Below, piece after piece: positions 32,407-54,063 of a stretch of 61,350 nt of DNA. The stretch is from Candidatus Zhuqueibacterota bacterium. Lineage in GTDB: Bacteria > Zhuqueibacterota > Zhuqueibacteria > Zhuqueibacterales > Geothermadaptataceae. The translations under genes were made by a program, and so were the position numbers. The notes under the pieces are model-generated. The model had not been told where the DNA came from. It did not search any database and worked only from the letters and a program-made list of their open reading frames with translations. The stretch spans positions 1 to 61,350 of the forward strand of contig JAUZRQ010000003.1 in the NCBI GenBank assembly GCA_030950365.1. The letters are read 5' to 3'. How positions within the stretch are numbered: position 1 is the first letter of the stretch; each line of letters starts with the position of its first letter.

Positions 32407-33033
32407 TCACTCTTCCAGGGCCGGACTTTCATGATCCGGGCAATCGAGGCGGAGCGAATGCACCTGCAGCGGTTTTTGCATTAACTCACAGAAAAAAGTC
32501 ACTTGTGTATCTGATTGCGGTTGTGAGCGGAGAAATTTGCAGGTAAAGCACATGCGGGTCAGGCTGATTAGCTGCTGTCGCTGCAGCGCTTCGATGAGGC
32601 GCATGAGGAATTGCATCACCACTGTGCGTTCCTGAAAATCGTACCGGGCAAGCAGCTCGCGAACGGTATCGGCCCAGGTGGCTACGGTCCGGGCCAGCGC
32701 CGCTCCGGCATCGGTGAGATGCAAATGCGCCGAACGCCGGTCCCGCCCGCTGATGTGCCGCTCCACATAGCTTTTCCGCACCAGGGTTTTGATGGCATCG
32801 CTGACCGTGGCCGGAGTGAGGTTGAAATGCCGCGCCAGATGGCCCACGGTCATCTCGTCATCCGCGTGATAGAGCAAATAAATCAAAATCTGAATCTGGA
32901 TGGGGCTCAATTGATGCTGCTTTGTTTTTTCCCACAGCAGCACCCGGAATGCCTGAGCGATCCGATCCAGGGCGGCGACGATTTTGCTATCCACATCCTC
33001 ATGCTGCCGGTCGGGATTGAAGCTGGAATTCAT
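32407..33033 (-). CDS. MarR family regulator with four-cysteine C-terminal extension
   Basis: A 208-residue winged-helix repressor. The MarR core is clear (LSPIQIQILIYLL, HLARHFNLTPATVSDAIKTLVRKSYVER, with the DRRSAHLHLTDAG wing). Beyond the core is an extra tail of about 55 residues with C162, C165, C182 and C198 (MCFTCKF, FFCEL, LDCPDH). Such a set could hold an Fe-S cluster or zinc and make the protein a redox or NO sensor. It is the second gene after cytochrome P460, and twin palindromes around their shared promoter are its likely operators. Confidence 0.85.
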   Translation of the reverse strand: MNSSFNPDRQHEDVDSKIVAALDRIAQAFRVLLWEKTKQHQLSPIQIQILIYLLYHADDEMTVGHLARHFNLTPATVSDAIKTLVRKSYVERHISGRDRRSAHLHLTDAGAALARTVATWADTVRELLARYDFQERTVVMQFLMRLIEALQRQQLISLTRMCFTCKFLRSQPQSDTQVTFFCELMQKPLQVHSLRLDCPDHESPALEE

Positions 33034-33181: not shown

Positions 33182-33670
33182 TCACTTCCGAAACCGGCTG
33201 AACACATAATCGTTTTCCTTCTGGCTGGAATGGCACTGGTGGCAATCCTGAGCCGGGTTCTTGACCACCCGATTCTTCGTATCTCCCTGAAAACCTTCAT
33301 AGCCCCAGCCGCCGGTGGCCGCAAACGTTTTGGCATTCTTATGCATCACGCCCACCACTTTTCGTGGTCCCTCCACGATGGCGTTGTTGTCCTGCCTGGC
33401 CTCCAGCAGATCGAACACCAAAACTGCCCCATCCGGATAGGACTTCCCGGCTTGCATCGCCCTGAGGGCCTTTTCATTGGCATAAATGTGATGGATCCCG
33501 CCAAAGGCTTCATACAAAGAATGGCCCTTCTGAATCACCATGGATTTGACATGCGTCCATTGCCGGTAGCCTTCCGGATAAGGCACCCGGCTATCGCTGG
33601 ATGTGGCATACAGCAGCACGCCGGTGGCCAGTATCGCCAACGCCCCGGCGCCAAAAAGCACTCTCCGCAT
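33182..33670 (-). CDS. cytochrome P460 family protein
   Basis: A 162-residue exported monohaem protein: N-terminal signal or anchor (MRRVLFGAGALAILATGVLL), P460 beta-fold segments (GGWGYEGF) and the single haem motif CHQCH at 143-147 near the C-terminus, as in P460/cytochrome c'-beta. P460 proteins oxidise hydroxylamine or bind NO; which applies depends on a crosslinking Lys I cannot align by eye. The start is the ATG with GGGAGG upstream. A TTG two codons earlier is less well placed. Transcribed with the MarR gene. Confidence 0.85.
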   Translation of the reverse strand: MRRVLFGAGALAILATGVLLYATSSDSRVPYPEGYRQWTHVKSMVIQKGHSLYEAFGGIHHIYANEKALRAMQAGKSYPDGAVLVFDLLEARQDNNAIVEGPRKVVGVMHKNAKTFAATGGWGYEGFQGDTKNRVVKNPAQDCHQCHSSQKENDYVFSRFRK

Positions 33671-33749
33671 AGCCAACCTCCCGTGGTTAGATGAGACATT
33701 CCGTACGAACGCCGCTCCAATGAACAGGACAGGGCGGCCGACAATTTAG

Positions 33750-33762
33750 TTAGGATTCCTAA
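33750..33762. promoter_or_regulatory. operator palindrome O2 overlapping the P460 -10 box
   Basis: TTAGGATTCCTAA: two perfect 6-base half sites around a central base. It overlaps the -10 hexamer by 2 bases and extends downstream of it. It is identical to the copy at 33798-33810, and the match continues outside the core (GTTAGGATTCCTAAATT in both). Confidence 0.75.
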
Positions 33763-33797: not shown

Positions 33798-33810
33798 TTA
33801 GGATTCCTAA
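33798..33810. promoter_or_regulatory. operator palindrome O1 upstream of the P460 -35 box
   Basis: This is the second copy of TTAGGATTCCTAA, 8 bases upstream of the -35. The two centres are 48 bases apart. MarR dimers typically bind palindromes of this size, so the co-encoded MarR protein is the obvious candidate. Confidence 0.75.
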
Positions 33811-33835: not shown

Positions 33836-33878
33836 CAAAAAAAGAACCCCGGCGCATCTTCCCATGGCCGGGGTTCTT
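33836..33878 (-). terminator. terminator of the nap-HAO operon
   Basis: AAGAACCCCGGC (33842-33853) pairs perfectly with GCCGGGGTTCTT (33867-33878). On the minus strand the stem is followed by a run of seven T. It lies 55 bases after the octahaem cytochrome stop and isolates the P460-marR unit from the long operon. Confidence 0.88.
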
Positions 33879-33932
33879 CATCTCAGGGCGCAGAGTGCTC
33901 ACGAGAAGTCAGCAACATGCAATCAGACAGCT

Positions 33933-35609
33933 TTAATGCCTGCCATTGGTCCGTGAGCGGTTAAACTTCCAGCCGCTGATCCGCTTGCCTTTGGGCATGT
34001 AGAACATTTTGGCCGGCGGCTCGAACTCCACCACCTGCTTGCGCATCGCTTCGAGATCGATATCGTTGCGTTTGCTGTAGATGTCGAACACATCGTCGGT
34101 ATTGAACTTCGTGCCCAGATAGTATTCCTTGTTCTGGTAGCGTTTTTCCCAGTACCGCCACTGTTTCTCGGACAGCAGGCCGCGTTCGAAGGCCGCCTTC
34201 ACGTTCTTGCGCACCTCTTCCCAGTAGTTGGGGAATTTTTTATACAGATAGGGCGTCAGATTGGCGCGGGTGTTGATGCCCCAGGCATTGCCTGGAACAT
34301 CGTATATGGCATATGGCACGAATTTGGTCGGGTCGTTGGTGTCGACCCATACCTGAGCTTCCTTATAACCGGCCTCAGCCGCGAACTTCATCAATTCGAT
34401 CATGTCCTCTTGCATTTCCCAGATACCATGCCATTGAGTGAAGTCCGCGCCCATCATCAATGCACCACTACGGAAACGCCTTCCTTCATGATGCCAGGCA
34501 TAGTACATCAGTTTTTCCGGTTCCTCATCCCAGCCGTTGAGCACCGGATTGGACAGGAACTTGCCATCCGCCTGGATCCGGTCGATGACGCCATCCTCGG
34601 TTAACCGTTTGGTCCATTTCACAAAGAAACGGCGGATTTCATTATACTGCAAATTCACCAGGTCGGCGGTCAGCATGTACATTTCAACGAAGTCCGGGGC
34701 GTGGCAGCTCTTGCAAATGGCCTCCATCCTTTCGCGCTTTTTCTCCCAGGATCCCAGCTTTTCTTCATTCCAGACCGTGCGGTAACTCCACGGGGCTTGT
34801 GATTCCCAGGCCAGCCGCGCGCTGACGTTGTGCGTCATGGGTTGGGTTTCATTGCCATCCATGTGGCAAGTGGTGCAAACCGGCGCTTCTATCGGTATGT
34901 TCTGGTTATCCGCAGTAGAGTAGTTCATATCCCAGTCTTTGCCTTTGGCTTTGAAGATATTGCCGTGTTTGGATTCTGTATAAATTTCGATGTGCGGATG
35001 GTCCGGCCCCATGTGGCACTCACCGCAGGTTTCCGGTTGCCGGGCAACGGCCTTGGAGAAGGAGTGCTTGGTATGACAAGCGTCGCATTCGCCCACGCTT
35101 TTATCCGGCCAGATATTGCCGATATTGTGGCACTGCTCACAGCCATGTCGGGTGGCGATGGGCATTTCAAAAATGGCGCGATCCGCGTTCTTCAGCACCC
35201 AGAACTGATGCGCGTGCTTGCTTTCGGCGAATTCTTGCACCTGCTGCTCGTGGCACTCGGCGCAATCCTTGGGAGTGGGATGGCGCGCCACCAGCACGTC
35301 ACTCTCCGGACAGGTAAAGGCGTCCCAATCATCTTTTTGCGCCGAGTGGCACTCCAGACAGCCGATGCCCTGCACCGCGTGCTTGCTCATTTTCCACTGT
35401 TCCACCACCCCGGGAGCAATGCCCTTCTGGTCGTGGCAGGAGATACACTGTTTGCTTTCGGCGGTGATTTCGATCTCCGGTGCTTCGGAAATGGATTTTT
35501 TCATCTCCACTCCCGCCACAATCACCAGAGTCGCAACCAGCAGAAAGCTAAATAAACCAATCAGGATCTTTTGTCCGGTTAACACATCGTTCTTCGCTTT
35601 CATAGACAT
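33933..35609 (-). CDS. octahaem cytochrome c, hydroxylamine oxidoreductase (HAO) family
   Basis: A 558-residue protein with an N-terminal TM anchor (about 14-34) and eight CXXCH motifs starting at residues 55, 84, 116, 157, 175, 195, 245 and 299. A mostly helical C-terminal half follows; this layout is that of octahaem HAO-family enzymes. Family members either oxidise hydroxylamine/hydrazine or, as in some Campylobacterota, reduce nitrite. Encoded 16 bases after cytochrome b and in an operon with NapA, it is likely the nitrite (or hydroxylamine) reductase. No NrfA is present. The segment MMGADFTQWHG may correspond to the crosslink region, where a Tyr would favour oxidation. Confidence 0.88.
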   Translation of the reverse strand: MSMKAKNDVLTGQKILIGLFSFLLVATLVIVAGVEMKKSISEAPEIEITAESKQCISCHDQKGIAPGVVEQWKMSKHAVQGIGCLECHSAQKDDWDAFTCPESDVLVARHPTPKDCAECHEQQVQEFAESKHAHQFWVLKNADRAIFEMPIATRHGCEQCHNIGNIWPDKSVGECDACHTKHSFSKAVARQPETCGECHMGPDHPHIEIYTESKHGNIFKAKGKDWDMNYSTADNQNIPIEAPVCTTCHMDGNETQPMTHNVSARLAWESQAPWSYRTVWNEEKLGSWEKKRERMEAICKSCHAPDFVEMYMLTADLVNLQYNEIRRFFVKWTKRLTEDGVIDRIQADGKFLSNPVLNGWDEEPEKLMYYAWHHEGRRFRSGALMMGADFTQWHGIWEMQEDMIELMKFAAEAGYKEAQVWVDTNDPTKFVPYAIYDVPGNAWGINTRANLTPYLYKKFPNYWEEVRKNVKAAFERGLLSEKQWRYWEKRYQNKEYYLGTKFNTDDVFDIYSKRNDIDLEAMRKQVVEFEPPAKMFYMPKGKRISGWKFNRSRTNGRH

Positions 35610-35625
35610 CTCCTTGTTTATAAAG

Positions 35626-36672
35626 TTAAAAAACCATGGCTTCCCACACCGTCAAAATCAGGATCACGCCCACAAACAGGGTTCCGAACACATAATTCAT
35701 TTTCACTTTAGGCATTTTCTGCTTGAAGAGCTCATCGATGAATGGCCAGAAGGTCAGGATGATCAGGCCAGCCACCAGCGAGTAAATGCCCACCGACAGC
35801 GGCAACAGCTTGAGGATACGGTACACCGGATAGAAATACCACTCCGGCTTGATGTGGATCGGAGTCTGGTCCGGTGTGGCCGGCTCGCCGATACCGGGCG
35901 GGAACACCACCGACAGCGCGCTCATCACGGTGACCAGAAACAGGGTCGCAATGATGACTTTATAAAAGTGTGATGGATAAAACGGATAGTGGCCTTCGCC
36001 TTCGTGGCCTTCGATTTCGGCCACGCCATGCAGACGCAGAACCAGAATGTGCAGAAAGATCAAAAATGTCATGACCGGCGGCAAAAGTCCGATGTGAATG
36101 GTGAAAAAGCGGGTCAGCGTATTCGGATTGACGTTCTCACCGCCGCGCAGGAAGTTCAAAACCGTGTTGCCCACCAGTGGCACGGCTTTAAAGAAATTGG
36201 TGCCCACGGTGGTGGCCCAGTACGAGAGCTGATTGTAAATCAGCGAATAGCCGGTGAAGGCAAAGGTCAGGGTGGTCAGGAGCAGCAGCACGCCGATGAT
36301 CCAGTTCAGCTCCCGCGGCGGCCGGTAGGCGCGAGTGAAGATGACGCGCACCATATGCAAAAACAGCGCGATCACCATCAAATTGGAACCCCAGCGATGA
36401 ATGCCGCGAATCAGGAAGCCGAAACGCACATCCTCGGTGATGTGGCGCACGCTCTCATAGGCCATCTCCGGCGACGGGATGTAGTAAAACGTGAGCAGAA
36501 TGCCGGTCAGCACCTGAAAGGCAAAAATGATCAACGGCGTGGCGCCCATCGCATAAAACCACTTTTTCATGTGGTATGGGATGGGTTCCTTGATAAAGAT
36601 CTTCTCGTTGATCTCAACAAATTTCTGGTAATCGATGGGGAATCGTTCTAATAACCATTCTTTCACTCTCAT
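35626..36672 (-). CDS. cytochrome b (bc1/b6f-type, full length)
   Basis: A 348-residue integral membrane cytochrome b. Haem ligand histidines occur in two helices (HRWGSNLMVIALFLH and FFTIHIGLLPPVMTFLIFLH, listed in parts), and the Qo-site motif is PEWY in HIKPEWYFYP. Both the N-terminal four-helix part and the subunit IV-like part are in one chain. The ATG overlaps the Rieske stop codon (TAATG), so translation is coupled. It should oxidise menaquinol and pass electrons through the Rieske protein to periplasmic cytochromes, probably the octahaem enzyme encoded next. Confidence 0.92.
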   Translation of the reverse strand: MRVKEWLLERFPIDYQKFVEINEKIFIKEPIPYHMKKWFYAMGATPLIIFAFQVLTGILLTFYYIPSPEMAYESVRHITEDVRFGFLIRGIHRWGSNLMVIALFLHMVRVIFTRAYRPPRELNWIIGVLLLLTTLTFAFTGYSLIYNQLSYWATTVGTNFFKAVPLVGNTVLNFLRGGENVNPNTLTRFFTIHIGLLPPVMTFLIFLHILVLRLHGVAEIEGHEGEGHYPFYPSHFYKVIIATLFLVTVMSALSVVFPPGIGEPATPDQTPIHIKPEWYFYPVYRILKLLPLSVGIYSLVAGLIILTFWPFIDELFKQKMPKVKMNYVFGTLFVGVILILTVWEAMVF

Positions 36673-37136
36673 TATGACCACCTCCCTTGCCTTTGTTCGA
36701 TGGTAATGAAAACCAGATCGTTCTCAATCGTAACTTTATACTCATCGAGAGGTCGTGGGGGTGGTCCACCAATCACCGTGCCGTCAGGGGCGAATATGCC
36801 CTTGTGGCAGGGACAGTAAAAGCGGTTTTTGGCCTCTTCCCATTTCACCAGACAGCCGAGATGGGTGCAGATGCCGGAATAGACCCGAAAGCCATCTTCC
36901 AGATGCACCACATACAGCGGCACCCTGCCCACCAGAAGCCGACGCGCCTTCCCGAGCGGGATATCGCGCGTTTTGGCGACCATGTATTTGGTGTAGCGAC
37001 GCCGGCCCAGATCGGGATACAGATACATCCATACGTCGCGTAGAAACGTGATCGCCGCCACGAAGACGCCTCCGCCCATGAACAGATTGGCGAAAAATTC
37101 TCGACGAGACGTTGGTCGTTTGTCTTTTTCTGTCAT
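36672..37136 (-). CDS. Rieske iron-sulfur protein
   Basis: A 154-residue Rieske protein: a Tat-like or basic N-terminus (SRREFFANLF) with one TM helix, then the 2Fe-2S binding boxes CTHLGC and CPCHKG about 15 residues apart, and a GGPPPRPLDEY segment as in bc/b6f Rieske proteins. With the following cytochrome b it forms a quinol-oxidising complex. No cytochrome c1 or f gene is nearby; a multihaem cytochrome could fill that place. Confidence 0.93.
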   Translation of the reverse strand: MTEKDKRPTSRREFFANLFMGGGVFVAAITFLRDVWMYLYPDLGRRRYTKYMVAKTRDIPLGKARRLLVGRVPLYVVHLEDGFRVYSGICTHLGCLVKWEEAKNRFYCPCHKGIFAPDGTVIGGPPPRPLDEYKVTIENDLVFITIEQRQGRWS

Positions 37137-37146
37137 TATCCACTCC

Positions 37147-38064
37147 TCATTTGTGCCGACTCACCTGTATCAATTGAAACGGTTTCTTTTCAAAATTGCG
37201 GGACGCTCCACCTTGCGAACCGGCGGCGCCGAATCCGAAAGTCAGAGCATGTCCCGCATTTTCACAGAAGGCCACACACAGTCCACAATTAAAGCAGTAC
37301 GGATACAGGGTTTCGATTTCTTTCGGAGCCAGATGTAGCGGACAGACCGCATAGCACGGAGCCGTTCCCGGCTTGCAATCGCACATTTCGGTATTGAATT
37401 GCACCCGCAGGGACCGCCGTCCCTGAAACAGCGCCAGGCCGGCCCCCACCGGACAGGCATATTTGCACCAAAAACGGCGAAACAGCGCCGCTTCAATGGC
37501 AAAAATGGCCAGCACCAGCACGATCTCGGCTCCCACGCCCAGGCCGAGAATGGCCTGCGACAGGAAGCTGGTGATAATGCCCGGTGCCGAAACATAGCTC
37601 AAAAGCGGCAATCCGAGTATCACGGTGATGAGCAACAGCGCCGTGAAGATCAGCCAGTACCACACCGCGCTCGGATTGCGGCCGAATTTGAAGTGATGCT
37701 CCCGCTTCCAGCGTTTCGGGAAAAATCGCTGTTGCACGGCATCGATCCATTCGGAAAGCGTGTTTTGAGGGCACACCCAACTGCAAAACACGCGGCCAAA
37801 CAGCCAGGCAATCACCACTGGCACCACGGCGGCCAGCAGCAGGGGGAGGTAAATTTCTCTGGTTAGCAGAATAGTCTGCAAAACCATCACCGGATCGGCC
37901 ATATCCAGCTCGCCAATGGAAATGCTGTACAGCGTGCCGACAATGGCATGAATGCCGGAGCCGTTGAGCACCGGCACGGCCACAAACAGCAGCAGCGACA
38001 GGGCCTGCACCCAGCGCCGATATCGGTTCAGGCGTCGGTAGGTGTGATTATTCTTTGCATTCAT
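37147..38064 (-). CDS. NapH-like membrane ferredoxin
   Basis: A 305-residue quinol-dehydrogenase-type protein with about four TM helices, the cytoplasmic cysteine motifs FCSWVCPQN and CKYACPVG typical of NapH, and two C-terminal 4Fe-4S sets (CKPGTAPCYAVCP and CFNCGLCVAFC). In NapGH systems the pair moves electrons from menaquinol to the periplasm. It follows two NapG-like genes, in keeping with that role. Confidence 0.85.
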   Translation of the reverse strand: MNAKNNHTYRRLNRYRRWVQALSLLLFVAVPVLNGSGIHAIVGTLYSISIGELDMADPVMVLQTILLTREIYLPLLLAAVVPVVIAWLFGRVFCSWVCPQNTLSEWIDAVQQRFFPKRWKREHHFKFGRNPSAVWYWLIFTALLLITVILGLPLLSYVSAPGIITSFLSQAILGLGVGAEIVLVLAIFAIEAALFRRFWCKYACPVGAGLALFQGRRSLRVQFNTEMCDCKPGTAPCYAVCPLHLAPKEIETLYPYCFNCGLCVAFCENAGHALTFGFGAAGSQGGASRNFEKKPFQLIQVSRHK

Positions 38065-38088
38065 GGTTCTGTTGGGTCGTCGATTCGC

Positions 38089-38628
38089 CTAAACATCATG
38101 CGCGCTTTTTACCGTAATGGCTTTCTCCTCCGCCGGGCAAACGTATTCGCACACGCCGCAGCCCACGCATTTGTCGGCATGCACCTTGGGGTAAATCTCA
38201 TTCTCCAGGGTGATGGCTTCACGATACATCGGACAGCGTTCGAAACAGGCGCGACAAATGACGCCCATATACGGCAAGCATTTAGACTCATCGATCACGG
38301 CCACGCCCATGCGAACCCGGGTTTTGTCCTGCAGGTCGTTATCCAGGGCGCCTGTGGGACAGACCGGCGGGCACTTCATGCACAGATAGCACGGCATGCG
38401 CTGCGGAAAAATAATGGGCGTCCCGAATTTGTCGCCCCATTCGATGTGCGCCATCTGAATACTGCCATACGGGCAGACCTGAGCGCACTTGTTGCACTTG
38501 ATGCATTTTTTGACGAACTCCGCTTCCCGTACGGCGCCCGGCGGCCTCAGTGGCGATCGATGCAAGCGAAAAGCCCTGAAGAGAATGGCGAACCAATCCT
38601 GTATCCCGTTCATGGCTTCTCCCATCAT
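38089..38628 (-). CDS. NapG-like polyferredoxin 2
   Basis: A 179-residue iron-sulfur protein with four cysteine groups: CIKCNKCAQVCP, CYLCMKCPPVCP, CLPYMGVICRACFERCP and CVGCGVCEYVCP, the NapG/NapF pattern for four 4Fe-4S clusters. It has no clear Tat signal, unlike the preceding paralogue, so it may be cytoplasmic or co-exported. Its start shares a base with the stop of the upstream paralogue. Confidence 0.8.
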   Translation of the reverse strand: MMGEAMNGIQDWFAILFRAFRLHRSPLRPPGAVREAEFVKKCIKCNKCAQVCPYGSIQMAHIEWGDKFGTPIIFPQRMPCYLCMKCPPVCPTGALDNDLQDKTRVRMGVAVIDESKCLPYMGVICRACFERCPMYREAITLENEIYPKVHADKCVGCGVCEYVCPAEEKAITVKSAHDV

Positions 38629-39251
38629 CAGGCGTTCGGTTGCAACGTCCCCGCGAATTTTTGCGCGGGTTGAATCTCAATCGCCGGAGGTTCCGCCGGG
38701 CAAACGTACAGGCACACTCCGCACCCGGTGCAATTCTGGCTGTTGATTTCCGGCTGTCCTCGAAAATTCCAAGCGATAGCCCGATGGCCAATCGGGCAGT
38801 TGGTCACGCAGCTCTGGCAGCGATGTCCCTGCCAGGCCAGGCAGGAATCGCTGATAATGCGGGCCCGGCCCATGGGCAGGATCGCCTCATCGAAGATCAA
38901 TGCCCCCTCCTTGCAGGCCTCGATGCATGGAAAGTCGCGGCACCAATAGCACGGACTCTGTCGCGGTTCGATGATCGGTGTGCCCATGGCGTCGCCGTAT
39001 TCCTCGCGGGCCATGCCAATGGCCCAGTGTGGGCAGGCTTTTACGCACTCTTCGCAGCGTGTGCATTTCTGTAAAAACGTCGTTTCGGCGATTGCTCCCG
39101 GTGGCCGCAACAGCGGTTTTGCGGATGGATCAGGGCAGGCATCCTGCAACATGGCTAAAGGGGAGAGTTGCGCGAGTTTATCCGCAAGTGCCGCCAATCC
39201 CAGACGAAAAAATTGTTTGCGACTCACCGCACGCTGCGAATCCAATCCCAT
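38628..39251 (-). CDS. NapG-like polyferredoxin 1
   Basis: A 207-residue protein from MGLDSQRAVSRKQFFRLG, a start favoured by AGAGGTGG upstream. The N-terminus resembles a Tat signal (SRKQFFRLG). Four 4Fe-4S sets follow (CTRCEECVKACP, CYWCRDFPCIEAC, CLAWQGHRCQSCVTNCP, CTGCGVCLYVCP). It is a paralogue of the next gene; tandem NapG-like proteins are unusual. Confidence 0.8.
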   Translation of the reverse strand: MGLDSQRAVSRKQFFRLGLAALADKLAQLSPLAMLQDACPDPSAKPLLRPPGAIAETTFLQKCTRCEECVKACPHWAIGMAREEYGDAMGTPIIEPRQSPCYWCRDFPCIEACKEGALIFDEAILPMGRARIISDSCLAWQGHRCQSCVTNCPIGHRAIAWNFRGQPEINSQNCTGCGVCLYVCPAEPPAIEIQPAQKFAGTLQPNA

Positions 39252-39261
39252 CGGACCACCT

Positions 39262-39507
39262 CTATTCCTGGACTTCATCTTCGAAATTGATGTAGGTCGG
39301 CGATACGCTCAGCACGTCATCGATCGATTCCATGATGAAAGCCGTGAGATTTTCGAGCTGCTTGATGTCATGAATCTCGGCGACCACGATGATGTTGTTA
39401 TCGCGATGCACGCCATAAGTGGTCACGCGAGGAATTTTCTGCAACTGCGTTAGCACCGCATCCGCTTTTCCAGGACGCGTCTTCACTATCATGCTGCTGA
39501 TCAACAT
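39262..39507 (-). CDS. napD: NapD-like chaperone
   Basis: An 81-residue protein with the ferredoxin-like NapD fold pattern (MLISSMIVKTRPGKADAVLTQL, here in parts; YGVHRDNNIIVVAEIHD). NapD binds the Tat signal of NapA and controls its maturation. It lies 158 bases after napA and 11 bases before the ferredoxin start. Confidence 0.85.
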   Translation of the reverse strand: MLISSMIVKTRPGKADAVLTQLQKIPRVTTYGVHRDNNIIVVAEIHDIKQLENLTAFIMESIDDVLSVSPTYINFEDEVQE

Positions 39508-39665
39508 GGTCTCTTTGGTTTTTGAGATTCAAAGCAACAGCCCTGCGCAGCCGGGTGGCGCTTTCGACGATAACCATGGGGGCTATTATCGCACCGGCTG
39601 CGCTTCGACTGCGCAGGCGCTGGCTCACACATGGGACATGGGCTGTAACAGATCCGGGTGCAGAC
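39508..39665. other. gap between napA and napD
   Basis: A 158-base gap in an otherwise tight operon. It has repeated CTGCGCAG/TGCGCAGG text (near 39552 and 39611), able to form an inverted pair. This could be an mRNA-processing or stabilising structure. No gene is seen. Confidence 0.35.
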
Positions 39666-41918
39666 TCAGGCTTTGACAACCTTCGCCGCACACACCTTGT
39701 ATTCCGGCTCTTTCGAGCCCGGATCGATCGCATCGTTGGTCAACAGGTTGGCCAGTTTCTCCGGCCAGTGCCACGGCACAAACAGCGTCTTCTCGCGCGG
39801 CCGGTCGATGACTCGCGCGGTCAGTTCCAGTTCGCCGCGCCGGGTGATGACCTTCACCTTGTCCTTATCCGCAATGCCCAGCCGGGCCGCATCTTTGGGG
39901 TTGATCTCCACATACGGTCCGGGCACGGCGCGCACCAACTGGGGCACCGTTCCGGTCATGGTCATGGTGTGAAAATGCTCCAGAACGCGGCCGGTGGTCA
40001 GCGCAAACGGATATTCGCTGTCGGTCGGCTCTTCCGGCCCTTTGGCCGGGCGAGCATACACCACCGCGCGGCCATCAGGCTTGCCGTAGAAATACATCCG
40101 CCGGCCTTTGGCTTTGTCCTTCGGGAACAACGGATCTTCCTCGGTAAAACGGTGCCGGGTGCCGGGATGATCGGTCGTGGGCACCGGCCAGCGCAAACCA
40201 CGCACCTGTTTCAATCGCCAGTACGGCGCGCCCATCAGGTCCATATCGCGACCTTTGGTGGTCAGAATGTATTCGTTCCACACGTCTTCCGGCGACTTGA
40301 AATGCTCGAAGTTCTTGCCGTAGCCCAGCCGGCGCGCCAGATCGATCAGGATGTCGCCATCCCAACGGGCTTCGCCGCGTGGTTCTATTACTTTGGGCAT
40401 GTACTGCGAGCGCCGCTCCGTGCAGCCATACACGCCTTCTTTCTCCGACCAGAACGCCGCCGGCAGCACGACATCGGCGAGCTTGGTGGTCTCGGTCGGA
40501 TGGAAGGCATCGGCGACCACCAGAAATACGTCCTTCATGCCTTTGAGGTATTTGTTCAGATTCGGCAGCGACTGCGCCGGATTGGTGCACATCACGTACA
40601 GCGCCTTGATCTCGCCCCTGGCCACGGCCTCGAACAGCGCAATGGTGTGCTTACCCGGCTTGGGATTGATATTGGTCACCGGCACGTTCCAGATGGCCGC
40701 GATCTCTTTGCGGTGCTGCGGATTGGCGATTTTGCGGTGCCCGGGCAGGATGTGGCACAGTCCGCCACCTTCGCGCACGCCGCCGCAGGCGTTCGGCTGG
40801 CCCGTCAGCGATAGCGAATCACAGCCGGGCTTGCCAATTTTGCCGGTCAGCAGGTGCAGATTGTGAATGAGATTGTTCAGCCAGACACCGCGCGTACGCT
40901 GGTTCACGCCCATAGTCCAGAGGGTGACCGCCGTCGGCGATTGCCCGAACCAGCGCGCCGCTTTTACGATGTCTTCGGGATTGACGCCCGCGACCTTCGC
41001 GGCGTATTCCGGCGTGAATTTCTCTAAAAAGCGTTTGTAATCCTCATAGCTGATTTTCTTCTTGCCATCGCTGAAATTCACCGATTCTTTGATGAACTGC
41101 TCATCGGTGTAGCCTTCCTTCACGATAATGCGCGCGATGGCATGCATGACCGCCAGATCGTATCCGGGGATCGGCTGGATGTGAAGATCCGCCACGCGGT
41201 CGGTGGGGGTCTTGCGCGGATCGATGACGATGATTTTGATATTGGGGTTTCTGGATTTGCGTTCCACAATGCGGTCGAAAATGACCGGATGGCACTCGGC
41301 CGTGTTGCTGCCCACAATCATGAACAGCTCTGCATGATCGAGATCGTCGTAGCTGCCTACCGGCTCGTCGGCACCGAACGTCGTCAAATAGCCTCCCACG
41401 GCGCTGGCCATGCACAGACGCGGATTGCCTTCAAAATTGTTGGTTCCGATGTGGCCCTTGAACAGCTTATTGGCGATGTACGTTTCTTCGGTTTCCGCCT
41501 GGCCGGATCCATAGAATCCTACCGCGCTGGGACCGTATTTATCGATTACCTCGCGGAACTTTTTGGCTACCAGGTCCATGGCTTCATCCCAGGTCGCGCG
41601 CTCCAGCTTCCCGTTCTTCCGAATCATAGGATAAAGCAGGCGCGATTTGGCCGTGATCACTTTGTACAGATAAAAACCCTTCACGCACAAGAAGCCGCGG
41701 TTGACCGTGTTTTCCTTGTCGCCTTTCACACTCACGACTTTGCCGTCCTTCACGCCCACCATCATGCCGCAGCCCACGCCACAGAAGCGGCAAACGCTTT
41801 TATGCCAGCTAATGCCTGCGGCCGCATCCGCCTGGGAGGGTTTTAAAAACAGGTCAACGCCGATGGATGCTGCAGCCGCACTGGCTGCCGTTGCTTTTAA
41901 AAATTCTCTCCGATCCAT
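39666..41918 (-). CDS. napA: periplasmic nitrate reductase catalytic subunit NapA
   Basis: A 750-residue molybdopterin enzyme with a Tat signal (DRREFLKATAAS), the 4Fe-4S ligands C43, C46, C50 and C77 (CRFCGVGC ... GFLC), and the Mo-coordinating cysteine C168 in NPRLCMASAVGG, the NapA-type sequence. The length is close to the monomeric, NapB-independent NapA type rather than the longer proteobacterial enzyme. It reduces nitrate to nitrite in the periplasm. The adjacent tetrahaem lipoprotein and NapGH-like proteins are the likely electron donors. NasA-type assimilatory enzymes are less likely given the Tat signal and napD. Confidence 0.95.
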   Translation of the reverse strand: MDRREFLKATAASAAAASIGVDLFLKPSQADAAAGISWHKSVCRFCGVGCGMMVGVKDGKVVSVKGDKENTVNRGFLCVKGFYLYKVITAKSRLLYPMIRKNGKLERATWDEAMDLVAKKFREVIDKYGPSAVGFYGSGQAETEETYIANKLFKGHIGTNNFEGNPRLCMASAVGGYLTTFGADEPVGSYDDLDHAELFMIVGSNTAECHPVIFDRIVERKSRNPNIKIIVIDPRKTPTDRVADLHIQPIPGYDLAVMHAIARIIVKEGYTDEQFIKESVNFSDGKKKISYEDYKRFLEKFTPEYAAKVAGVNPEDIVKAARWFGQSPTAVTLWTMGVNQRTRGVWLNNLIHNLHLLTGKIGKPGCDSLSLTGQPNACGGVREGGGLCHILPGHRKIANPQHRKEIAAIWNVPVTNINPKPGKHTIALFEAVARGEIKALYVMCTNPAQSLPNLNKYLKGMKDVFLVVADAFHPTETTKLADVVLPAAFWSEKEGVYGCTERRSQYMPKVIEPRGEARWDGDILIDLARRLGYGKNFEHFKSPEDVWNEYILTTKGRDMDLMGAPYWRLKQVRGLRWPVPTTDHPGTRHRFTEEDPLFPKDKAKGRRMYFYGKPDGRAVVYARPAKGPEEPTDSEYPFALTTGRVLEHFHTMTMTGTVPQLVRAVPGPYVEINPKDAARLGIADKDKVKVITRRGELELTARVIDRPREKTLFVPWHWPEKLANLLTNDAIDPGSKEPEYKVCAAKVVKA

Positions 41919-41938
41919 GCTATTTTCATCCTCCTCAA

Positions 41939-42379
41939 TTAATTGTGGAACTTTAGCGTATGACCGTTATGGCAGGAGAAGCATGAGGACGCTTCGGTTT
42001 TGGAATAATCCACTTCTTTGGGAGAATGACAGGCGATGCAACGCTCGGTCGAGGGTTGCACGACAAACTCGGTTGTACCATCTCCATGGCAAACAAAACA
42101 GCCAACATTCACCATACCATGCAGCGATGCGTGCCATTGCTCCGCCACCTCAGGCGTTTCCTCCTTATGGCAATCGTAACAACTCTGATTAAAATCGACG
42201 TCGGGATGCTCGTCTTGCTGCGCGGTTCCTGCCTCAGCCAATTGCGCAGACACGACGGCTTGATCCGTATCGACCGCCTGGTTCATCTTTCGCGCATGCT
42301 CGGTTTGCGCACAGGCGAAAAACACCAGCGCAGATAACACCGCCAACCAGGCGATGGCAATGAGTGTTTTTCGTTCCAT
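41939..42379 (-). CDS. tetrahaem c-type cytochrome lipoprotein
   Basis: A 146-residue protein from the ATG at MERKTLIAIAW, which has AAGGGG upstream. A signal segment ends in a lipobox (VFFAC, C23), and four CXXCH motifs follow (CYDCH, CFVCH, CIACH, CFSCH). It is not NapB (dihaem) or NapC/NirT by pattern. It lies directly before napA with a 20-base gap, so it probably delivers electrons to NapA at the membrane surface. Confidence 0.82.
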   Translation of the reverse strand: MERKTLIAIAWLAVLSALVFFACAQTEHARKMNQAVDTDQAVVSAQLAEAGTAQQDEHPDVDFNQSCYDCHKEETPEVAEQWHASLHGMVNVGCFVCHGDGTTEFVVQPSTERCIACHSPKEVDYSKTEASSCFSCHNGHTLKFHN

Positions 42380-42413
42380 AAATGCCCCTTTCCTTTGATG
42401 TTCAGAAAGGTTG

Positions 42414-42445
42414 TGCACCTTCCGGATGCTTTTCCGGAAGGTGCA
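42414..42445 (-). other. intercistronic hairpin between porin and tetrahaem cytochrome genes
   Basis: TGCACCTTCCGG pairs perfectly with CCGGAAGGTGCA (12 base pairs) across an 8-base loop. The following sequence is only slightly T-rich, so it is more likely a partial terminator or 3'-end stabiliser. Either would make porin mRNA more abundant than the downstream genes. Confidence 0.65.
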
Positions 42446-42470
42446 TTGACTTTCCCGCTATGCGATTGGA

Positions 42471-43934
42471 TCAGAATTTATACGTAATGGTGGTTTTCGT
42501 CTCCCAGGCCGGATCGTTGAACTGGTTGGTGCCATTGATCAGATAGCCAGCAGCATCACCCGGGAAGAATACACCACCGCGAAACGTGAACACCAGTTGC
42601 GGATAAATTTTCCAATCCAGTTTCCAATCGATCTCTTTGCCGATGGTTTTCGAGGAAGCGGCATCGATCACTGTGGTGTTGGTGGCGGCATCCACATGCC
42701 AGGCATGGATGGCCTTGGTCGCGCCAATATAGGTAAACGAGCCAAACAGACTGACCTTTTTGCTGAACTTCAGCGTGCCGTTAAGCTGCAATAGCGTGGT
42801 GTTTTCCAGCTCGCGGTAACCACGCACGTTCGGGGCACCCAGACCCTGAGGCGTGATGCCTTCTTCATCCGGCATGATGGAGTCTTCCCAGATTTCCGTC
42901 ACATAGAAGAAACCCGATGTACGCAATTTATTGACGTTGCCTTTGCCGCCGGTCCAGTCGTCATCACCGGAGCCGATGCCCAGAACGCCGCCGAGCGTGA
43001 ATTTAGGTCCGATATCTTTGTTGGCCTTGAGGTACAGGTTGAACCCGCTCAGGTCGCCGTTGTTGATGTCCGTCAATTGTTTGGGACCGATCGTGATGTT
43101 GTTCACATCGTCCTTCCCAAATAGCAGGTTGAATTCGCCGATGAAATTGAAGCCTTTGGTCTTGTAGTTGGTCGCAAGCCCGAGGCAGGTCAACTGGCTG
43201 AGATGCGGCGTAAAGCGGGAACGGAAGTAATTGATATCATTGGGCATGTAGGTCGTGCCATCGTCGTCACCCGCATCCCTGTAATAGAAAGCAAACGCCT
43301 GATAGCTCAGGTTGCCCATTTTATTTTTCAGACTGATGTACAGCAGATCGGCATCGTTGCCATCAGTCACGACGTTGCCATTCGCATCTTTGGTTTCGGC
43401 ATCGGTTAGACCATCCACCCCTTCAGAAACCTTGGCCCAGCCCAGCTCAACCTTTTTGTTGATGACCATCTGCACGCCATCGAGGTTGTTATCCAGCACC
43501 ATCTTGTTGCCGAAGCCGTACCACATGCGGCCCACACGGAACATGAAAGCCGTGTTGGGAATATCGAACTCGATGTAGGCCTGATCGACGTGAAACAGGA
43601 AATTGGTGTCTTTGAAATCGAAAAGGCTGCTGCCACCGGTTTTGCCAATGCGATCGACCGTCCGATCGGCATTGTCCACGCCCCACCATCCCTGCGCCAT
43701 ATCGAAACGCGTGATGGCGCGGAGATGATCGTTGGCCGCAAAGGTCAAATGCAGCCGCAACATCTGCACGGTGTATACATCGTTGTAGGTCGCTTTGCCA
43801 AGAGTAAAATCGTGCTGGGACTGCCGCCACGCCGTGTAAACGCCTTTGTACTTCAAGCTGGTTTGTGCAAATGCCAGACTCGTGGCAAGGATCACCATCG
43901 CCCCGATCAACGAAACAATTCGCTTGCTCACCAT
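42471..43934 (-). CDS. outer-membrane porin-like beta-barrel protein
   Basis: A 487-residue exported protein: signal peptide ending SLAFAQ, then amphipathic beta strands with frequent Trp/Tyr/Phe and a terminal Phe (KTTITYKF). No haem motif. It resembles porins of the alginate-export or phosphate-selective type, but I cannot assign a family. GAGGAG precedes the ATG. As first gene of the nitrate operon it may let nitrate or nitrite through the outer membrane. Confidence 0.75.
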   Translation of the reverse strand: MVSKRIVSLIGAMVILATSLAFAQTSLKYKGVYTAWRQSQHDFTLGKATYNDVYTVQMLRLHLTFAANDHLRAITRFDMAQGWWGVDNADRTVDRIGKTGGSSLFDFKDTNFLFHVDQAYIEFDIPNTAFMFRVGRMWYGFGNKMVLDNNLDGVQMVINKKVELGWAKVSEGVDGLTDAETKDANGNVVTDGNDADLLYISLKNKMGNLSYQAFAFYYRDAGDDDGTTYMPNDINYFRSRFTPHLSQLTCLGLATNYKTKGFNFIGEFNLLFGKDDVNNITIGPKQLTDINNGDLSGFNLYLKANKDIGPKFTLGGVLGIGSGDDDWTGGKGNVNKLRTSGFFYVTEIWEDSIMPDEEGITPQGLGAPNVRGYRELENTTLLQLNGTLKFSKKVSLFGSFTYIGATKAIHAWHVDAATNTTVIDAASSKTIGKEIDWKLDWKIYPQLVFTFRGGVFFPGDAAGYLINGTNQFNDPAWETKTTITYKF

Positions 43935-51432: not shown

Positions 51433-51663
51433 CTAATGCATATGGCAGCATGATAATAAAACCGCGGCACGATTTCAACCCCTTTCGGTTGAACGTGTGC
51501 GGCACAAATTGCTTGAAATTGCCATAGATGCGTTTATTTTTTAAAGCATGATGAGTGGGACATTCCTGAACCCTAGTCCTAAAAATGGAACAGTGTGGGC
51601 CTGGCACACAGGCCTCGTCTGATTGGATACCTGCAATCAGAGCGCTCGCTCCCAAAAGTCAAC

Positions 51664-54063
51664 ATGGCCAAACGGAAAAAATCCAGAAAATCTGCTGCAT
51701 CCGGTGGGAAGAAAAAGACTCCTGCTCCGGCGCCAGCCAAGGGCAAACAACGGCGGTGGGTATGGCCCGTCGTCCTCGTCGTTTCTCTGCTGCTCATTTG
51801 GCAGGGCATTCGCTGGTTCGCTGCTACGCCCGGTAGAGATCAAGGGCTACTTGAATTTCCCCGTCCCCCGCAGCGTGCGTACCGCTCGGCCATCCGGTTC
51901 GAGGATTTCGTCGGCTCGGAGGCCTGCGAACCCTGCCACAAGCAGGAGTACCAGCTCTGGCGGCGGTCCACGCATGGCAATGCCGGCGGCGATCCTGACC
52001 GGGTGCACATTCTGGGCAAATTCGACGGCCGACCGAGGCGTTTCAAAGATGCCGTGGTCATCCCGCAGAAAACCGGCCGCGGACAGTATCAGTTCGTCGT
52101 GCGGCAAAAAGGTTTTCCGGAAAAAACGTTCCGTGTGGATGCGGTGGTCGGCGGCGGGCACATGGTCGGCGGCGGCACGCAAACCTATTTTTCGCGCTTC
52201 CCGGACGGCACTCTGCGCTTTCTGCCGTTCGATTTCATCCGTAAGGAGCAGGTCTGGTTTGGCGAGACCAAGGACCGCCGCGGCTGGGTGCCCATCACCC
52301 CCGCGCTGTCGATTACCGACCTCAGCGAGTGGCCGCCGTCGCGCATTCTCGGCGGCGAACCGAGCTTCAAAAATTGCCAGGAGTGCCACGGCAGCCAGAT
52401 TCAGACTTTTTATGACACCAGGCAAAAGAAATACGTGTCGCGGTATCAAACGCTGCAGATCAATTGCGAGTCATGCCACGGTCCCGGTCGGCGGCATATT
52501 GAGCTCATGCGGCAGGATTCGCGATCGCCTGGGGACGACATCGGCATGGAGCCCCTGGCGGCGCTCAGCAAAGACGCCTCGGTGAATCTGTGCTCGCGCT
52601 GCCATGCCCTCAAGGATCAGCTCGAGCCGGGGTATCTGCCCGGGAAAGGATTGCAAAATTACTACTCACTCAAATTCCCCATGCTCGGCGGCGATCCGTA
52701 TCACGCCGACGGCCGCATTCGCGCTTTCGGCTACCAGCAAAATCATCTGTTCAGCGATTGCTATCTCAACGGCTCCATGACCTGCGTCGATTGCCACGAT
52801 CCGCATTCACAGGATTACCGCGACATCTGGGGGCGGCCGCTGGTGGGCAAATTCGACAACGGCCAGTGCACCGATTGCCACGCCAGTAAAGCGCTGGCGC
52901 CCGAGAAACACTCGCATCACAAGCCGGATTCGCCGGGCAATCGCTGCACCTCGTGCCATATGCCGTTTTTGCAGCACCGCGCTATGGGCAAGACTCTGCG
53001 GTTCGCCCGCTCGGATCACACCATCCCGATTCCGCGACCGGCTTTCGACAACACGCTTGGCATCGAGAATGCGTGTTCGCAGTGCCACCGCGACTGGCCG
53101 GTGGAACGGCTGCAAAATCAGGTGGAGCGCTGGTGGGGCTCGCTGAAACCGCACAAAGCCATCGTCACCGCGCTGCACGAGGCCGATCAGCTTTCAGACC
53201 GGATCACGGCGGCGCGGCGGCTGGTATTGCCGGAGGCGGGCTTCCCCATGGCGCAGTTTGCCGCGATGGCGTATTTCGTGGAGCATTTTTTGGAACCGGA
53301 CATGCCCCGCCTCGAAGGCGAGGTCATTTCACGGTTGCGCGCTTTTGCGGAAAGCGAGGACGTTGATTTGAAGGCGCTGGCCCTGGCGGCGCTGCATCTG
53401 GCTGGCGGTGAAAAGCCCGATGTGCGCCGGTTTTTGATCCGGCAACTGCGGGCCGAGGGCGGACAGGACCGGCCGCTGCGCCTGCGCTGGGGCCTTGCGT
53501 TGGGCTATCTCGGCTCCACCTACCGTGACCGCGGGGATACGCGGAAGGCGCTACTAACCTTTGAGAAGGCGCTTGAGGTGCTGCCCGATCACGAGCCCAC
53601 ATGGACGCATTTGGGCTATACCTATCAGGCCATGGGGGATCACGGCCGGGCGGTGGAGGCGTTTCGCAAAGCGGCGGACCTGGCGCCGGACGATCCGCTG
53701 CCGTGGGTGAATATGGGCGTCTCGCTGGCAAAACTGCAGTCTATTGAGCAGGCCCGCGCGGCCTATCACCGCGCAATTCAAATCAATCCATGGAAGCCGG
53801 AAGCGTATTTCAATCTGGGTAATCTGGCCTACAAAGAGAAAGACTACGAAAGCGCGATCGGATTTTACCGCAAGGCCGTGGAGCTGAATCCGGCGCTGGC
53901 GTGGGGGCATTTTTATTTGGCCCGCTGCTACATCTTAACCAAACAGTTCCGCAAGGCCTACGACGCCGCCCTGGCCGGCCTGCAATACGAACAGGACAAC
54001 GCTTTGGGACAACAAATGTTTTCGGATTTGGAGAGGTATATACGCCAGCAACCAAACAAATAA
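51664..54063 (+). CDS. membrane-anchored octahaem cytochrome c fused to TPR repeats
   Basis: A 799-residue protein from the ATG at MAKRKKSRKS. A lysine-rich N-terminus of about 30 residues leads into one TM helix (33-50). The first half has eight CXXCH motifs (CEPCH, CQECH, CESCH, CSRCH, CVDCH, CTDCH, CTSCH, CSQCH), in the style of cytochrome c554/NrfA-related multihaem proteins. The last 200 residues hold four to five TPR units (e.g. WTHLGYTYQAMGDHGRAVEA). It is distinct from the HAO-family protein. Many such fusions are of unknown function; it may assemble multihaem complexes or act as a periplasmic reductase. Confidence 0.82.
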   Translation: MAKRKKSRKSAASGGKKKTPAPAPAKGKQRRWVWPVVLVVSLLLIWQGIRWFAATPGRDQGLLEFPRPPQRAYRSAIRFEDFVGSEACEPCHKQEYQLWRRSTHGNAGGDPDRVHILGKFDGRPRRFKDAVVIPQKTGRGQYQFVVRQKGFPEKTFRVDAVVGGGHMVGGGTQTYFSRFPDGTLRFLPFDFIRKEQVWFGETKDRRGWVPITPALSITDLSEWPPSRILGGEPSFKNCQECHGSQIQTFYDTRQKKYVSRYQTLQINCESCHGPGRRHIELMRQDSRSPGDDIGMEPLAALSKDASVNLCSRCHALKDQLEPGYLPGKGLQNYYSLKFPMLGGDPYHADGRIRAFGYQQNHLFSDCYLNGSMTCVDCHDPHSQDYRDIWGRPLVGKFDNGQCTDCHASKALAPEKHSHHKPDSPGNRCTSCHMPFLQHRAMGKTLRFARSDHTIPIPRPAFDNTLGIENACSQCHRDWPVERLQNQVERWWGSLKPHKAIVTALHEADQLSDRITAARRLVLPEAGFPMAQFAAMAYFVEHFLEPDMPRLEGEVISRLRAFAESEDVDLKALALAALHLAGGEKPDVRRFLIRQLRAEGGQDRPLRLRWGLALGYLGSTYRDRGDTRKALLTFEKALEVLPDHEPTWTHLGYTYQAMGDHGRAVEAFRKAADLAPDDPLPWVNMGVSLAKLQSIEQARAAYHRAIQINPWKPEAYFNLGNLAYKEKDYESAIGFYRKAVELNPALAWGHFYLARCYILTKQFRKAYDAALAGLQYEQDNALGQQMFSDLERYIRQQPNK

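Follow-up and report, generated by a model that had tools for sequence, protein, structure and literature searches.

How might a bacterium dispose of the nitrite that its periplasmic nitrate reductase forms, when none of the usual nitrite reductases is found in its genome? This question is raised by a ten-gene operon on contig JAUZRQ010000003.1 of Candidatus Zhuqueibacterota bacterium (assembly GCA_030950365.1), of which positions 1 to 61,350 of the forward strand were analysed and are called the window here; the window corresponds to contig C60 in a draft genome of 4.98 Mb, which is 95% complete (G, L and C denote genomes, loci and contigs). The operon joins nap genes to a Rieske protein, a cytochrome b and an octahaem cytochrome c (OCC) of the HAO family, and very probably enables this uncultured KSB1-type bacterium to respire nitrate and then to reduce the nitrite thus formed, ammonium being the most likely product. 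In our view, it is a Caldithrix-type periplasmic nitrate-ammonification operon in which the OCC would be fed by a minimal Rieske/cytochrome b complex, a reading to which we assign a probability of about 0.7. The sequence itself provides the gene content and order, the haem count of the OCC, its missing cross-link tyrosine and its N-terminal anchor, the trio of Rieske, cytochrome b and OCC genes, and the absence of the usual nitrite reductases.

Operon layout and the nap genes

The ten genes occupy the minus strand from 43934 to 33933, in the following order, and are closed by a terminator:

42471 to 43934, minus strand: outer-membrane porin of 487 residues (PF13372, 34 bits; NF033939, DESULF_POR1, 51 bits and below its cut-off; both matches weak)
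41939 to 42418, minus strand: NapM-like tetrahaem c-type lipoprotein of 159 residues with four CXXCH, directly before napA (PF14522, weak, just below cut-off)
39666 to 41918, minus strand: NapA of the monomeric Desulfovibrio type, with a twin-arginine (Tat) signal and the molybdenum-ligand motif NPRLCMASAV (PDB match)
39262 to 39507, minus strand: NapD chaperone (PF03927, 4.8e-14)
38628 to 39278, minus strand: NapG-like ferredoxin 1, with the Tat-like N-terminus SRKQFF (NapG/MauM models, 128 and 107 bits, below cut-offs)
38089 to 38628, minus strand: NapG-like ferredoxin 2 (NapG/MauM models, 152 and 121 bits, below cut-offs; synteny)
37147 to 38064, minus strand: NapH-like membrane ferredoxin (PF12801; TIGR02163, 113 bits, below cut-off)
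36672 to 37136, minus strand: Rieske protein, CTHLGC...CPCHKGIF (PF00355, 1.9e-13; motif survey)
35626 to 36681, minus strand: cytochrome b (PF00033, 4.3e-55, and PF00032; PDB matches to cytochrome b and b6f)
33933 to 35609, minus strand: membrane-anchored OCC of the HAO family, predicted nitrite reductase (PF13447, 9.2e-28, 97.7 bits; eight CXXCH)
33840 to 33879, minus strand: strong intrinsic terminator after the OCC gene (sequence and fold energy)

A preliminary description of this DNA had reported ten closely spaced genes on this strand, from a porin to an HAO-family protein, ended by one strong terminator, and both statements were borne out. Coordinates and strand agreed for all ten genes, the identities were assigned with Pfam and NCBIfam models and with solved relatives from the PDB, and the intergenic distances range from a 17-bp overlap to 158 bp. 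The terminator, GAACCCCGGC...GCCGGGGTTC-T7, is a GC-rich hairpin followed by seven T about 50 nt 3' of the OCC stop codon; its folding energy is -27.6 kcal/mol (z = -4.4), and an equally stable fold was obtained with 0 of 200 shuffled sequences. A search for the same ordered set, which that description had proposed, recovered the gene order in other genera and phyla, and thus the arrangement is not due to chance.

The best solved relative of the operon NapA is the monomeric enzyme of Desulfovibrio desulfuricans (2jio/2nap), which matched over a single full-length stretch (residues 37-750) with 841 bits and shares with it the segment of the Cys molybdenum ligand, NPRLCMASAVGGY, whereas E. coli NapA scored lower (558 bits). 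This supports the earlier assignment of NapA as a nitrate reductase that makes nitrite. The tetrahaem gene directly before napA has the placement seen in published napMADGH operons (including PMC5317091), and a profile search, with E. coli as positive control, found no NapB in the 95%-complete genome. Because a monomeric-type NapA and an upstream NapM-like gene are combined with a genome without NapB, the nap part is, to judge from its sequence, of the napMADGH type, as in Desulfovibrio, Deferribacter, Thermosulfurimonas and Caldithrix. Of the two NapG-like proteins, ferredoxin 2 is the copy common to related clusters.

Where the contig extends far enough, nearly all related nap clusters have a homologous porin gene ahead of napM, and this adjacency across phyla suggests a dedicated nitrate/nitrite porin. 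The porin gene lies directly 5' of napM at L040, L042, L044, L061, L063, L066-L070, L076, L079 and L080, which represent several phyla. In two related genomes, napA is interrupted by an in-frame stop codon (L081, G068:C815; L085, G031:C82), which reflects either an assembly error or a pseudogene.

The octahaem cytochrome and its genetic link to Rieske and cytochrome b

A profile search ranked, among solved proteins in the PDB, Ignicoccus IhOCC (4qo5, E = 5e-55) ahead of Kuenenia KsHAOr (6h5l) and of oxidative HAO. The best NCBIfam match of the OCC was hydrazine dehydrogenase, far below cut-off, and the NrfA family model PF02335 did not match it. According to a published rule, a cross-link tyrosine is present in oxidative and absent in reductive members of the HAO family. 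The OCC was aligned with 29 relatives and with fragments of solved proteins taken from printed profile-search alignments. The column of the cross-link (NeHAO Tyr467) holds Tyr in NeHAO and KsHOX and Gln392 in the OCC; it also holds Gln in 17 of 17 close relatives in the tree, the Chloroflexota one included. KsHAOr has Trp at this position, IhOCC has Thr, and further members of the family have His, Trp or Leu. In the OCC, the CXXCH of haem 4 and the GPDH after it are retained, as are the Asp/His of the haem-4 pocket. Since the tyrosine is missing, the OCC is predicted to work in the reductive direction, in agreement with what had been proposed for it at the outset.

An octahaem tree, likewise proposed in the preliminary description, did not place the OCC within oxidative HAO. 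In the maximum-likelihood tree it belongs to an 18-member clade, all members of which are encoded beside Rieske and/or cytochrome b genes (support 99/98), and this clade lies apart from KsHAOr and far from NeHAO and KsHOX, the exact placement being unsure with PDB branches that are long and incomplete. Two generalizations had to be rejected: Gln at the tyrosine site is not a marker of linkage to Rieske/cytochrome b, as the linked OCC of G072 has Phe, and the linked OCCs do not form a single clade, as the tree requires two changes.

At the N-terminus of the OCC (LIGLFSFLLVATLVIVAGVEMKKS), a strongly hydrophobic segment leads into a charged, cleavage-poor stretch, and no cleavage-like site is present. 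Uncleaved-looking N-termini of this kind were found in the OCCs that adjoin Rieske/cytochrome b genes, whereas OCCs without that neighbour mostly have shorter, secretion-type signals, and the hydrophobic N-terminus of the linked OCCs is thus read as a putative membrane anchor.

Both partners of the OCC carry the hallmarks of bc1/b6f complexes, that is, CTHxGC/CxCH in the Rieske protein and four His haem ligands plus PEWY in cytochrome b. The latter unites a b6-like and a subunit-IV-like part in a single chain, and its His spacing is b6f-like (H-x13-H, H-x14-H). The operon contains no gene for cytochrome c1 or f, and no mono- or dihaem cytochrome c gene is present among its ten genes. The Rieske motif is devoid of the Ser of high-potential Rieske proteins, and a motif survey showed the same pattern in the relatives; absence of this Ser is linked to a low redox potential, and the lower potential thus predicted would suit menaquinol.

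The three genes are adjacent in every close relative with a long enough contig (KSB1, Ignavibacteriota and Fidelibacterota) and also around more distant OCCs of Bacteroidota and Chloroflexota, altogether in five phyla and in several gene orders. Clusters with the order porin-napM-napA-napD-napG-napH-Rieske-cytochrome b-OCC were found in the same genus (L039), elsewhere in the same phylum (L040, L042, L044) and in Neomarinimicrobiota/Fidelibacterota (L063). In Ignavibacteria/Melioribacteraceae (L061, L066, L067, L068, L070), Rieske-cytochrome b-OCC form one block and porin-napMADGH begins about 3.5-4 kb beyond, while the order in G072 is Rieske-cytochrome b-OCC-porin-napM-napA-napD. The Chloroflexota locus L071 has the order OCC-Rieske-cytochrome b and the Bacteroidota locus L072 the order Rieske-cytochrome b-OCC, and no nap match was obtained within the sequence examined around these two. 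A cytochrome b at least 53% identical was present in 10 of 82 genomes of the phylum; eight of these have this OCC, G072 has its cytochrome b beside another anchored OCC, and in G058 the contig ends inside cytochrome b. Three further loci of the phylum (L047, L050, L082) encode a distant octahaem subfamily, about 37% identical and anchored, beside Rieske and cytochrome b genes, two of them (L047, L082) also near a more distant NapA-like gene.

Because the trio is conserved, even where the nap genes are kilobases away, and because the linked OCCs appear to be anchored, these data support direct electron delivery from the bc-type complex to the reductase. What the present analysis adds is that the trio is conserved across phyla, that it is independent of nap in Ignavibacteria and that the linked reductases carry a putative membrane anchor.

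Electron paths, product and alternative explanations

A search of the rest of the genome, also suggested in the preliminary description, yielded no NrfA (PF02335) above cut-off, with E. coli as positive control, and neither NIR_SIR nor Hcp, with positive controls elsewhere. Several candidates were discarded: the weak PF02335 matches are multihaem-TPR proteins below cut-off, the NirS match is a YncE-like beta-propeller of 358 residues without CXXCH, the NirK match is a multicopper oxidase below the curated cut-off, and the NapC/NrfH-type matches are long multihaem proteins of about 500 residues encoded elsewhere in the genome, not small NapC or NrfH.

The substrate, direction and product of the OCC, and the electron path that leads to it, are predicted as follows. 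Nitrate would enter through the porin and be reduced to nitrite by the monomeric NapA, which would more likely obtain electrons from menaquinol via NapH/NapG and/or the tetrahaem NapM. The Rieske/cytochrome b complex, which lacks a cytochrome c1 or f of its own, would also oxidize menaquinol, and the Rieske protein could pass electrons to the anchored OCC, either directly or through NapM. The OCC would then reduce nitrite, most likely with six electrons to ammonium. The anchored OCC would thus replace the cytochrome c subunit of the bc complex, and if so, nitrite reduction could be proton-motive. A broader proposal, that Rieske protein, cytochrome b and anchored octahaem reductase form in at least five phyla a single energy-conserving menaquinol:nitrite oxidoreductase with the reductase as its cytochrome c subunit, is tentative, and we put it somewhat below even odds. 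The conserved trio poses a testable question, namely whether a nitrite reductase is the direct acceptor of a bc-type complex and nitrite reduction thereby conserves energy.

Several claims of the preliminary description were modified by these results. It had the bc-type complex feed the OCC, and the genetic tie between them in five phyla favours this, while exclusive feeding is something that we infer. It had named ammonium or hydroxylamine as product; ammonium is likely, free hydroxylamine is less likely to be the main product because no Hcp was found, and nitric oxide (NO) is also possible. It had called the module self-contained. The operon is a complete candidate pathway, but that term is too strong, because contig C57 encodes a second Rieske/cytochrome b pair and a second octahaem protein of the HAO family, so that the OCC is not the sole HAO-like protein of the cell.

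This second octahaem gene (C57:83840), which follows a 504-residue multihaem gene with a NapC/NirT domain, is one of several points that weigh against the proposed reading. The genome is 95% complete, so the absences are not absolute, and the Otr model found no match in the genome but none in the controls either. An AlphaFold model of the OCC, built with 15 sequences, was poor (pLDDT 48.9, pTM 0.42). Electrons may also reach the OCC from the Rieske protein via NapM or NapG rather than directly. Furthermore, KsHAOr, which has no cross-link tyrosine, was reported to be a nitrite reductase that forms NO from nitrite (PMC8042395, as relayed by later papers). As to contig C57, its octahaem protein falls together with NeHAO, KsHOX and KsHAOr in the tree, and its tyrosine site is occupied by Leu; a region of this contig (62000-86000; L083, L051) holds both this gene and, about 12 kb from it, the second Rieske/cytochrome b pair, which lies amid multihaem genes with 4 to 22 CXXCH.

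An alternative explanation is that the Rieske/cytochrome b pair mainly serves NapA via NapM, so that the OCC would be fed by NapM or another membrane complex and its position would be mere operon clustering. This route is among those proposed for Caldithrix (PMC5317091), and in KSB1 and Fidelibacterota the trio is indeed located inside the nap operon. However, Ignavibacteria keep Rieske and cytochrome b with the OCC and apart from napMADGH, the L071 and L072 trios have no nap match nearby in the sequence examined, and NapGH already supplies a quinol-oxidizing module. Thus, we regard it as unlikely, although it is the strongest of the alternatives.

Slightly less probable still is the possibility that the OCC reduces nitrite in the manner of Kuenenia HAOr and would release mainly NO or hydroxylamine for other proteins to handle. 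The NO-forming KsHAOr and its homologue Kuste4574 in a Rieske/cytochrome b complex are precedents, and a cytochrome c'-beta-like gene and a gene for a MarR-type regulator follow directly downstream. Yet the OCC resembles IhOCC more closely than KsHAOr, from which it is separated in the tree; the genome yielded no Hcp, NirS or NirK for hydroxylamine- or NO-based steps; the product in Caldithrix is ammonium (PMC5317091); and the c'-beta gene lies past the terminator, is probably transcribed from a promoter of its own and did not turn up next to related OCC genes. That the OCC instead oxidizes hydroxylamine or hydrazine and passes the electrons to the bc-type complex, as its family membership and its best, far sub-threshold NCBIfam match might suggest, is highly improbable in view of the tyrosine missing from the OCC and all close relatives, the operon shared with a nitrate reductase and the distance from NeHAO and KsHOX in the tree.

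Known systems and neighbouring genes

The preferred reading, a nitrate-ammonification operon with an OCC fed by Rieske/cytochrome b, has a published precedent, although the preliminary description knew of no standard name for the gene set. Kublanov et al. (2017; PMC5317091) described Cabys_2564-2556 of Caldithrix abyssi as a nap-eHao cluster and proposed electron paths for it, and C. abyssi was reported to grow on nitrate and to form ammonium (PMC5317091). As judged from the published gene list, both clusters have napM, napA, napG, napH, Rieske, cytochrome b and an octahaem eHao in the same order on a single strand, both lack NapB, NapC and NrfA, and the proposed electron paths are identical. 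In contrast to Caldithrix, which belongs to another phylum and additionally has alternative complex III, the present cluster starts with a porin and has two NapG-like genes. As gene set, order and electron paths were described in 2017, the operon is a well-supported further example of a Caldithrix-type system and not a new one.

Other systems share parts of this design. The Kuenenia stuttgartiensis R/b-3 complex (Kuste4569-4574) also combines a Rieske protein, a b6-like cytochrome b and an HAO-like octahaem cytochrome, which can co-migrate with the Rieske/cytochrome b complex, but it has an extra multihaem cytochrome, an NAD(P) oxidoreductase and a separate subunit IV, and its octahaem cytochrome has been proposed to reduce nitrite to NO. 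The nap-hao-hcp cluster of Deferribacter autotrophicus and the 11-gene cluster of Thermosulfurimonas and Dissulfuribacter likewise have napMADGH, a neighbouring HAO-like cytochrome and no NrfA; however, the former carries hcp and is without a qcrABC-type complex, and the latter have an NrfD-type locus instead. The reverse-HURM/eHao of Nautilia is similar in that an HAO-like protein runs in reverse in nitrate ammonifiers without NrfA, but it involves a membrane tetrahaem cytochrome and cytoplasmic hydroxylamine reduction and no bc-type complex. For KSB1, a review reports narG, nrfA and nosZ and leaves nap and hao unmentioned, and other papers refer to nap, hao, nrfA or nosZ one at a time; the cluster as such did not appear in the portions of the open-licence literature that were covered, and other descriptions may exist.

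Nitrate ammonification retains fixed nitrogen in ecosystems, and surveys of it often rely on nrfA. Such surveys would overlook clusters of this type in genomes of KSB1/Zhuqueibacterota, Ignavibacteriota and Fidelibacterota.

The two genes just past the terminator, to which the preliminary description did not refer, encode a protein of the cytochrome c'-beta/P460 family (33182-33676, minus strand) and a MarR-type regulator whose tail is rich in Cys (32407-33033, minus strand). The best PDB match of the former is 6hih (E = 1e-53), chains named P460 reaching just about 1e-12; the cytochrome c'-beta family binds NO. The motif TTAGGAATCCTAA occurs twice (33750-33762 and 33798-33810), on either side of a TTGACA-like promoter, as putative twin operators would. 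The pair was not counted as part of the module, as it lies past the terminator and was not seen around related OCC genes, although in the genome from the same genus the contig stops too early to show whether it follows there. Elsewhere in the window, 51595-54063 on the plus strand encodes an 822-residue protein that combines a multihaem cytochrome part with TPR repeats, and a similar protein of 769 residues is encoded on contig C111 (L004:205-2514).

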